In this document: positions 31,431 to 49,145 of the stretch, one piece after another
How positions within the stretch are numbered: the first letter of the stretch is position 1
Layout of the letters: each line of letters begins with the position of its first letter
Origin: Methanosarcina mazei S-6
GTDB taxonomy: Archaea; Halobacteriota; Methanosarcinia; Methanosarcinales; Methanosarcinaceae
Reading direction: 5' to 3'
Assembly (NCBI RefSeq): GCF_000970205.1
Contig: NZ_CP009512.1
Span: forward strand, 744,001-808,000
DNA: 64,000 nucleotides
Made by a program: the position numbers and the translations under genes
The notes under the pieces: model-generated
What the model saw: the letters and a program-made list of their open reading frames with translations, nothing else
What the model was told of the DNA's origin: nothing
Databases searched by the model: none

Positions 31431-32534
31431 ATTATTTGCAGGGAGATAAAAGCTGAAGATAAAGAACAGTGGAATAACGTAGTTAAAGAAAGTCTTAATG
31501 GGACCTTTTATCATACCTGGGAATGGAAAGAGGTTATAGAAAAGGGGTTAAACTCCAAATCTTTGTCAGTGGCAGTTGAAGACGAGAAAGAAAATAAATT
31601 AATAGGGATCTTTCCATTTTTTATAAGAAATATTTTTGAAGATTACAGAATTAACAAATATTTACCGATTATTTCTAATAACTTTCAAATAGGCTGTTCT
31701 CCTCATCATAAATTATACAGTTTTGGAGGCCCCTGTGTCCCTTCCAGTCTTACCAGTTGTGAAGAGATTTACAGGTTGATGTTTGATTTCATTGATTCGT
31801 ATAGTAAAAATGAAAAAAGCATTATGGATCATTTGATATATCCCTATCATAATTGCCTGGACTCGGCACTAATTCAAAACGGATATATCAAAAATGGAAT
31901 TAAAAAAACTGCTATAGTTAATATAGATAGGGACCTTAATGAAATATGTAAGGGGTTTAAGAGGCAATTCAGTAGAGATATAAAAAAAGCTTCAAAAAAA
32001 GAAATAATTATATACGAAAGTCAGAACTATGAGGAAGATATAGACCTTTACTATAATCAGTTCCAGAAACTATTAATTGACAGAGTTATCGAAAGGACTG
32101 GAAATTGTTATAAGAGAGTATCATATGCCCTGGTTCCATATTCGTATTTTGAAATGCTCCGTGACGTCCTTTTTCCGAAAAAAATGGCGAGGTTATTCTT
32201 TGCAGAATACAATGGAGTAAAAATTGGAGCATTAATAAATTTTTACTATAAAGATACTATATATCTGGGTCACACCTCGGTATTGAGAGGCGAATACAAC
32301 GGTCTTAACGCTTATAAGCTCTTAATCTGGCACATCATAGTGGATGGAAAGAAAAATGGCTTCAAAAATCTTGATGTAGCGGGCCTTCACCCTGATGAAA
32401 CACATGGTCAATATCACTTTAAAATGGGATTTAACGGTCAGGTCAAAGAGATCGGAGTATACAGTAAATCGTACAGATATGACGAGATTAAACATGCAAA
32501 AGCAATTTATAATGAATTGAGAGGGCTAAAATAA
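31431..32534 (+). CDS. FemAB-like/GNAT-fold acyltransferase, apparent ATT start
   Basis: The frame opens at a stop-free region whose best start is ATT at 31431, giving MICREIKAEDKEQWNNVV (367 aa). A strong SD, AGGAGGT, ends 7-8 nt upstream; no ATG, GTG or TTG occurs in frame until a TTG at 31563, 44 codons inside the conserved fold. The protein resembles FemAB/BioF2-like GNAT acyltransferases (FYHTWEWKEVI; LFFAEYNGVKIGALINF; YKLLIWHIIVDGKKNGFKNLDVAG). In bacteria such enzymes add amino acids to cell-wall precursors; here a role in modifying surface glycans is only a guess. The gene is AT-rich relative to its neighbours, which suggests horizontal origin. Confidence 0.8.
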   Translation: MICREIKAEDKEQWNNVVKESLNGTFYHTWEWKEVIEKGLNSKSLSVAVEDEKENKLIGIFPFFIRNIFEDYRINKYLPIISNNFQIGCSPHHKLYSFGGPCVPSSLTSCEEIYRLMFDFIDSYSKNEKSIMDHLIYPYHNCLDSALIQNGYIKNGIKKTAIVNIDRDLNEICKGFKRQFSRDIKKASKKEIIIYESQNYEEDIDLYYNQFQKLLIDRVIERTGNCYKRVSYALVPYSYFEMLRDVLFPKKMARLFFAEYNGVKIGALINFYYKDTIYLGHTSVLRGEYNGLNAYKLLIWHIIVDGKKNGFKNLDVAGLHPDETHGQYHFKMGFNGQVKEIGVYSKSYRYDEIKHAKAIYNELRGLK

Positions 32535-47456: not shown

Positions 47457-47777
47457 CCATAACAGGAGCTTAATAAAATCTTCAAACAGAACAGGAAATT
47501 AATAAGATCTTCAAAATCAATTTTTTTCTTTTTCCTCTCTTTTTTAATGTTTAAATCTCTATTTCTTCTATTTCATCGGTTTCGGGAAAAGCTTATTTAA
47601 CGGCTTCTTTATATATGGCTTGAAGAATCATGTTTTCATGTACTTATGTCTGATTCAATGTCTTTGCTTCCATAAATTCTCTTAATATTTCATCACTTCA
47701 GAACAATCTATATATTAATATAGAGTGGGGTATACTTAATTGGATAGATTTTATCAACATCTAAAGGAGATGACAGG
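47457..47777. other. Gap upstream of the mannose guanylyltransferase
   Basis: The 321 bp has a TATA-like TTTATATATGG near 47609-47619 and another, CTATATATTAATATAG, at about 47708-47723. No gene is seen. An SD (AAGGAG) lies at 47764-47769. Confidence 0.55.
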
Positions 47778-49145
47778 ATTAAGTCGATAATTCTTGCAGG
47801 TGGTTCAGGGACAAGGCTCTGGCCTCTCAGCCGGGAAATGTATCCCAAACAATTTTTAAAATTCGGGGAAACTTCACTTTTTCAGGAGACTGTACTTCGA
47901 TGTCTTGAGGTTTCGGACATCTCTGAAGTCTTTGTCGTAACCAATGAAGCCCAGAAGTTTTTCGTTATTGGGCAGATCAAAGAAGCAGGGTATTCAATTC
48001 CTCCTGAGAATATATTGATAGAGCCTGAAGGCAAGAACACGCTTCCTGCAATTTTCTTTGGGATGAAAGAAATTGAAAAAAAATTCGGGGATTCAATTGT
48101 AGGAGTATTCTCCTCAGACCATGTCCTTGACAGGGCTGCAATGGCGACAATTTCTTCAGCTGAAAATCTGGCTTCGGATTATCTCGTCACTTTTGGGGTT
48201 GTTCCTACCTTCCCTCATACCGGGTATGGCTACATCAAAGCTTCAGAGGCATGCAGTCCGGGCTACAGGGTCTCAGAATTCAGGGAAAAGCCTGATTTTG
48301 AAACCGCAAAAAAATACATTGAGGAAGGGTGCCTGTGGAACAGCGGGATGTTCCTTTTTGAGACCAGGCTCTTTTTTGAAGAAGCCAGAAAACATGCTCC
48401 TTCAGTTTATGGCTGCTTTGAGAAAGAAGGAGATATTAATCAAATTTACGAATGTGTGGATAACATCTCCATCGACTACGGCATAATGGAGAAATCCGAT
48501 AAGGTTGCGGTTGTAAGGCTGGATCATAAATGGAGCGACCTTGGAAATTTTGCAGCAATTTATGATGAGCTCGAAAAGGATTCTGTAGGAAATGTCATCC
48601 ATGATTGTGACCCGATGCTTCTTAACTCCGACGGGAACCTGGTGTATTCGAGATGCGGCAAAATTGTTTCTTTGATTGATGTTAAGGATATGGTTGTCGT
48701 TGATACAAGTGATGCCCTGTTAATATGCCCCAAATCCAGCAGCCAGAAAGTAAAAGAAATAGTTTCCGAGCTGAAAGGCAGAAAAGACGAACGGGCGTTT
48801 ATAGGACAGACAGTTTACAGGCCATGGGGGTCATATACATTGCTCGATGCCTCTCCCGGGCACAAAATTAAGAATATCACCGTGCTCTCAGACCATAAGC
48901 TGAGCCTTCAATTACATTACCACAGGAGCGAACACTGGGTGGTCGTAAAAGGTATGGCATGCGTGGAAGTTGATGGAAAGCAGTTTTTCCTGGGACCTGG
49001 AGAAAGCACATTTATCCGGGCAGGACAAAAACACAGGCTGTCGAATCCCGGAAAGCTCCCTCTTGAAATTATCGAGGTGCAGCTGGGAGAGCTTGTGGAT
49101 GAAGAGGATATTGTCAGGTTTGATGATGTGTATGGGAGAAGATGA
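47778..49145 (+). CDS. Mannose-1-phosphate guanylyltransferase / mannose-6-phosphate isomerase, ATT start
   Basis: The bifunctional enzyme makes GDP-mannose for surface glycans. Reading from ATT at 47778 gives MKSIILAGGSGTRLWPLSRE, the exact family N-terminus and nucleotide-binding motif. No ATG, GTG or TTG is in frame between an upstream TAG and the ATG at 47838, which would delete that motif. GGAG is 8 nt upstream of the ATT. The nucleotidyltransferase domain runs to about residue 270 (FREKPDFETAKKY; GCLWNSGMFLFE). A cupin isomerase domain follows (KLSLQLHYHRSEHWVVVKG, with zinc His). 455 residues, intact. Confidence 0.93.
   Translation: MKSIILAGGSGTRLWPLSREMYPKQFLKFGETSLFQETVLRCLEVSDISEVFVVTNEAQKFFVIGQIKEAGYSIPPENILIEPEGKNTLPAIFFGMKEIEKKFGDSIVGVFSSDHVLDRAAMATISSAENLASDYLVTFGVVPTFPHTGYGYIKASEACSPGYRVSEFREKPDFETAKKYIEEGCLWNSGMFLFETRLFFEEARKHAPSVYGCFEKEGDINQIYECVDNISIDYGIMEKSDKVAVVRLDHKWSDLGNFAAIYDELEKDSVGNVIHDCDPMLLNSDGNLVYSRCGKIVSLIDVKDMVVVDTSDALLICPKSSSQKVKEIVSELKGRKDERAFIGQTVYRPWGSYTLLDASPGHKIKNITVLSDHKLSLQLHYHRSEHWVVVKGMACVEVDGKQFFLGPGESTFIRAGQKHRLSNPGKLPLEIIEVQLGELVDEEDIVRFDDVYGRR

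Follow-up and report, generated by a model that had tools for sequence, protein, structure and literature searches.

In the genome of Methanosarcina mazei S-6 (one contig of 4,142,816 bases), the gene manC, whose product is a mannose-1-phosphate guanylyltransferase/mannose-6-phosphate isomerase, in all likelihood has AUU as a true non-canonical start codon, at position 47778 of the window, by which we mean the whole stretch of 64,000 nucleotides (contig positions 744001–808000) that was analysed. Initiation at this codon had been proposed in an original prediction made from the letters of the window, and strong support for it now comes from the codons that about 125 genomes carry at this place. 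From these sequences, a non-canonical start (AUA, AUU or AUC) is very probably a real and ancient feature of manC in the order Methanosarcinales. The anatomy of this start, its conservation and the absence of a usable canonical start in many species can be read directly in the genomes compared.

The manC start region

The open manC frame spans 47748 to 49145, and no ATG, GTG or TTG lies in it ahead of the ATG at 47838, so that the whole way from the upstream stop to the conserved N-terminus of the protein lacks an in-frame canonical start; the claim of the original prediction that none stands between the TAG at 47745 and that ATG holds at every coordinate. The ATT is preceded by AAAGGAGATGACAGG and, as had also been claimed, the GGAG at 47766–47769 ends 8 nucleotides before it. 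This GGAG and the TGA after it pair, around one mismatch, with the 16S rRNA end of the same genome, GGATCACCTCCT.

Translation from the ATT gives (M)KSIILAGGSGTRLWPLSRE, and the N-terminal peptide expected of ManC under an AUU start is (M)KSIILAGGSGTR. The identification of the product as a mannose guanylyltransferase stands, with a match to the TIGR01479 (GMP_PMI) profile of 447 bits, above the curated cutoff of 372.95; this match begins at profile position 2, and the ATT does open the conserved N-terminus of the family. The protein has an N-terminal nucleotidyltransferase part containing LAGGSGTRLWP (codons 6–16) and a C-terminal isomerase/cupin part (PF00483, PF22640, PF01050), and its alignments with the PDB relatives 2x5s and 2cu2 start at residue 2–3 of the query, consistent with an N-terminus at the codon at 47778.

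In the mechanism that we propose, GGAG(ATGA) would pair with the 3′ end of the 16S rRNA, GGAUCACCUCCU, and so position the 30S subunit, the codon 8 nucleotides downstream of the Shine–Dalgarno sequence would occupy the P site, and the initiator Met-tRNA (anticodon CAU) would pair with the first two bases of the codon, the third being mismatched, so that the protein would begin Met-Lys-Ser-Ile-Ile-Leu-Ala-Gly-Gly. Such a mechanism would entail incorporation of Met by the initiator tRNA, a reduced or tunable output, and tolerance on the part of archaeal factors such as aIF1.

Codon 1 of manC in the order Methanosarcinales

Orthologues of manC were gathered at the levels of genus, family, order and class from about 125 genomes in three families of the order, the class-level matches at the thresholds used being confined to Methanosarcinales. 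Of the 128 genes collected in the order, 69 have ATA as codon 1, 31 ATT, 8 ATC, 15 ATG, 2 GTT, 1 GTC and 1 GTG, with one distant and misaligned homologue standing outside the tally. Comparison with other Methanosarcina had been suggested as a check on the start, and within the genus 28 of 28 orthologues have ATA (20) or ATT (8). These two codons are found in records of Methanosarcina, Methanolobus, Methanomethylovorans and Candidatus Methanoperedens, and ATG in Methanococcoides seepicolus, Methanothermococcus and bacteria. In the alignment of the relatives, codons 2–20 show a protein type of conservation, with variation concentrated at third positions, and the positions upstream of codon 1 are variable except for those of the Shine–Dalgarno sequence around −12 to −9. 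The uniformity of codon 1 in the genus, taken with the conservation of codons 2–20, makes this pattern exceed chance. A sequencing or assembly error concealing a true ATG, which had been named as a possible refutation and for which a single base change would suffice, is refuted by the presence of ATT in 8 and ATA in 20 Methanosarcina genomes and of ATT, ATA or ATC in the independent genomes of other genera, and we regard it as practically inconceivable.

The 111 manC genes whose codon 1 is AUH or GUY (hereafter the non-canonical genes) offer few alternatives. There is no ATG, GTG or TTG from the upstream stop to codon 1 in 45 of them, and in 40 none from the upstream stop through codon 20, these 40 belonging to 12 genera and to all three families (f1, 22 genes; f3, 9; f5, 9); in several manC genes the upstream stop lies merely 9–15 nucleotides from codon 1. 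A Shine–Dalgarno sequence ends 6–9 nucleotides before codon 1 in 101 of the 111. These observations bear on the reading in which M. mazei translation starts at the first canonical codon, ATG 47838, to give a protein of 435 residues and leave the preceding conserved stretch untranslated. The shortened version does retain its family match (403 bits against 447 for the full protein), but the nucleotide-binding motif is lost, as had been foreseen, and the PF00483 score drops from 167.9 to 122.3 bits. Moreover, the Shine–Dalgarno motif sits at codon 1, codons 2–20 vary as protein-coding sequence does, and only 34 of 127 relatives have ATG as codon 21; a start at 47838 is very improbable.

The history of codon 1 was followed on a tree of 127 manC genes built from codons 2–50, codon 1 being excluded, and as this is 147 nucleotides of coding sequence the counts of changes are rough. 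Codon 1 switches 12 times between G-ending and other codons, compared with 3 times and not at all for the internal isoleucine codons 4 and 5, which is what would be expected if each variant were read as Met; synonymous third positions mostly switch from a few to about 30 times. Judged by these sequences, codon 1 is freely exchangeable with ATG, unlike an internal isoleucine codon. In Methanosarcinales the first two bases stay AU, rarely GU, and it is the third that drifts, so the start was probably non-AUG already before the three families diverged and has remained so.

In M. mazei an ATG at 47770, to which the original prediction made no reference, directly adjoins the GGAG and opens a mini-frame of seven codons including its stop. 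Translation might begin here and shift frame into manC, the corresponding in-frame ATG being the start in sister species, and it is true that an ATG is frequent at this place and is in frame in 23 of 31 Methanosarcina genes, where it would give M-T-G-I-K-S. However, its spacing to the GGAG is zero, as against 8–9 nucleotides for codon 1, the mini-frame reaches its stop after six codons, and the sequence offers no evident slippery heptamer. In the order as a whole, 44 genes have the nearest ATG within 16 nucleotides in frame, 41 have it out of frame and 42 have none there, a state that changes 24 times on the tree and whose changes would be lethal to the gene if this ATG were its start; in 23 of the 111 non-canonical genes no frame contains an ATG within 24 nucleotides. 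This reading is accordingly improbable for M. mazei, and as general explanations for manC both a frameshift and an upstream AUG start fail. A programmed ribosomal frameshift was rejected on the grounds that the frame of the upstream ATG is not conserved and the ATG is often absent. Because species differ in whether the ATG in GGAGATGA is present and, if so, in the manC frame, it is best read as part of the Shine–Dalgarno sequence.

Some observations nevertheless weigh against initiation at codon 1. Eight of the 111 non-canonical genes have no recognizable Shine–Dalgarno motif, a few Methanoperedens manC genes carry potentially usable in-frame ATGs 15–27 nucleotides upstream, and in many Methanosarcina species an ATG stands in frame at −9, though with zero spacing to the GGAG. 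In addition, the tree behind the counts of codon changes rests on those 147 nucleotides only.

Further non-canonical starts in the genome

Additional cases were sought by screening 1.2 Mb of the genome for coding signal and a Shine–Dalgarno sequence ahead of the first canonical codon, followed by checks in relatives, and the features found are listed with those of manC in Table 1. The FemAB-like gene in the window has its first ATG, GTG or TTG 44 codons downstream of the likely start, and the start codon is ATT, ATC or ATA in 8 of 8 genes (7 species), nearly all with a GGAGG-type sequence. The start of the glycosyltransferase (GT2) fusion is ATA or ATT in 20 of 20 Methanosarcina among the matches listed, 19 of them without a canonical alternative upstream, and in Methanoperedens-type genomes it is ATA behind GGAGG or GGGGG. 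The YfcE-like gene has ACG where 15 relatives among the matches listed have ATG, and represents either a lineage-specific start or an inactivated gene. The aconitase-family gene begins with CTG here and in one other genome (G001), and with TTG in 15 other species among the matches listed.

Table 1. Positions of the manC start region and of candidate non-canonical starts (W, window position; C, contig position)
Feature	Position	Strand	Basis or remarks
manC, mannose-1-phosphate guanylyltransferase/mannose-6-phosphate isomerase, 455 aa	W 47778..49145	+	TIGR01479, PF00483, PF22640, PF01050, PDB 2x5s/2cu2
Upstream in-frame stop TAG, closing the manC frame	W 47745..47747	+	Sequence
Proposed manC start codon ATT (AUU)	W 47778..47780	+	Sequence and codon comparison in relatives
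First canonical in-frame start, ATG (codon 21); its use would delete LAGGSGTRLWP	W 47838..47840	+	
Shine–Dalgarno region AAGGAGATGA; GGAG core 47766–47769	W 47764..47773	+	Complementary to the 16S 3′ end of the same genome, GGATCACCTCCT
Out-of-frame mini-frame ATG ACA GGA TTA AGT CGA TAA	W 47770..47790	+	Judged part of the Shine–Dalgarno sequence, no start
TATA-box-like AT-rich stretch, putative promoter	W 47709..47723	+	Sequence inference only
FemAB/GNAT-like protein, 367 aa, likely AUU start	W 31431..32534	+	GGAGG 8 nucleotides upstream
GT2 glycosyltransferase/LPG_synthase_TM fusion, likely AUA start	C 574155 (locus L220)	−	
YfcE-like phosphoesterase, ACG at start	C 686536 (locus L226)	−	GGAGG 7 nucleotides before ACG
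Aconitase/isopropylmalate dehydratase-family large subunit, CTG start	C 1064728 (locus L245)	−	
Likely ATA start, Shine–Dalgarno-like motif; relatives ATA and GTG	C 585150	−	Synteny comparison
Likely ATA start, Shine–Dalgarno-like motif; relative ATG	C 648531	−	Synteny comparison
Likely ATA start, Shine–Dalgarno-like motif; relative ATG	C 604897	−	Synteny comparison
Likely ATA/ATT starts behind Shine–Dalgarno-like motifs	C 845108 and 696107	+	
HflX GTPase, ATT at presumed start	C 949390 (locus L239)	+	

All codon types were passed through the same filter of Shine–Dalgarno sequence and conservation. At a distance of seven codons or more before the first canonical codon, the filter picked out ATA four times, ATT three times, ACG once and six further codons once each, of which four simply adjoin ATA or ATT sites; 39 canonical starts passed the same filter. 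The rate was estimated by comparing 241 genes, about 0.4 Mb, with the syntenic stretches of two relatives. Six of the 241 are well-supported, distinct cases (manC, the FemAB-like gene and those at 585150, 648531, 604897 and 686536), which suggests that non-canonical starts account for a few percent of genes.

Other candidates are less clear. The presumed HflX start is ATT in 17 of 17 species among the matches listed and may also be non-canonical, although it is ambiguous because ATG or GTG (elsewhere GTA) stands two codons earlier in some species. Equally ambiguous is AblB (contig position 462669, ACG), whose family profile begins only at residue 33. A candidate at 815265–815283 on the minus strand of the contig was rejected as probably a broken copy, a short piece resembling a longer gene in G001.

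The original prediction held that initiation outside AUG, GUG and UUG is rare in archaea, and given further genes of like anatomy this needs revision, at least for Methanosarcina. A single odd codon has grown into what appears to be a conserved non-canonical start across an order, there are signs that Methanosarcina uses such starts more widely, and the further cases in the genome suggest an effect beyond one gene. We lean, by a modest degree, towards the broader view that in Methanosarcinales a few percent of genes begin outside AUG, GUG and UUG, using AUA, AUU, AUC and sometimes ACG or CUG behind strong Shine–Dalgarno sequences, that their discrimination at the third base is unusually relaxed, that some of these starts are as old as the order, and that many archaeal proteins in the databases are truncated or extended in error. 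Gene finders that accept only ATG, GTG and TTG cannot place the manC start in many genomes and would cut the active-site motif; they would likewise misplace the starts of the FemAB-like and glycosyltransferase genes.

Regulation and known systems

AUU starts are known in bacteria, in the E. coli genes infC (IF3) and pcnB. An infC-like regulatory role of the manC start is possible, though unsupported. The AUU or AUA might have been retained to make initiation deliberately weak and open to regulation, for instance as a sensor of aIF1 activity or a brake on GDP-mannose synthesis, which would add a purpose to initiation at codon 1 and is compatible with it. A weak start of this kind has been argued for bacterial infC, the non-canonical codon of manC persists order-wide, and surface-glycan genes recur among the cases (manC, the GT2-flippase fusion and the FemAB-like gene). 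However, unrelated genes are also among the candidates, and changes to G-ending codons are about as frequent at codon 1 (12 changes) as at synonymous sites; selection against AUG at this codon, tested by the switch counts on the tree of 127 genes, is unsupported, and as there is no evidence of such selection a regulatory role is unproven. The manC leader shows no unusual folding (z-scores of 0.5 and −1.0) and no match to an Rfam element, a terminator scan found nothing, and its single promoter-like hit was not above the shuffled expectation. We consider a deliberately weak start doubtful. No unusual Met or Ile tRNA was seen in the 1.2 Mb of the genome scanned.

No report of AUA or AUU starts in Methanosarcina or Methanosarcinales was found in the literature searched, the coverage of which leaves out most subscription papers. 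In a prokaryotic start-codon survey based on annotation, one switch from AUG to AUU was counted among 61,358 ancestral AUG starts (PMC5622118), and a ribosome profiling study of M. mazei reports ATG, GTG, TTG and CTG among small genes, a search of it for AUU finding nothing (PMC11456600). An in vitro study on bacteria found that pairing is required at the first two codon bases, with more tolerance at the third, and that IF3 counteracts weak pairing at the third base (PMC10158994). According to work cited in PMC6237735, aIF1 in Sulfolobus promotes discrimination against non-canonical starts, and tolerance of such starts in Methanosarcinales would thus inform on the initiation factors of this order. 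A start outside AUG, GUG and UUG that persists throughout an order would provide a clean natural test of how archaeal ribosomes, with aIF1, aIF1A and aIF2, judge the third base.

As a protein, ManC is an ordinary member of the TIGR01479 family and an ordinary relative of 2x5s and 2cu2, and differs from the family only in its start codon, the homologues in bacteria and Methanothermococcus beginning with ATG. Like infC and pcnB it has an AUU behind a Shine–Dalgarno sequence as its only start, with a third base that mismatches the initiator anticodon. Those genes, however, are bacterial and their starts are discriminated by IF3, whereas manC is served by the archaeal aIF1/aIF1A/aIF2 machinery, and its start drifts among AUA, AUU and AUC (with GUU and GUC) and has several counterparts elsewhere in the genome. 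Set beside canonical archaeal Shine–Dalgarno initiation, as described in a review (PMC7531240) in which AUG, GUG and UUG are named as starts and AUU is not mentioned, the placement of manC and its spacing of 6–9 nucleotides are ordinary, and it is the start codon that lies outside the named set.
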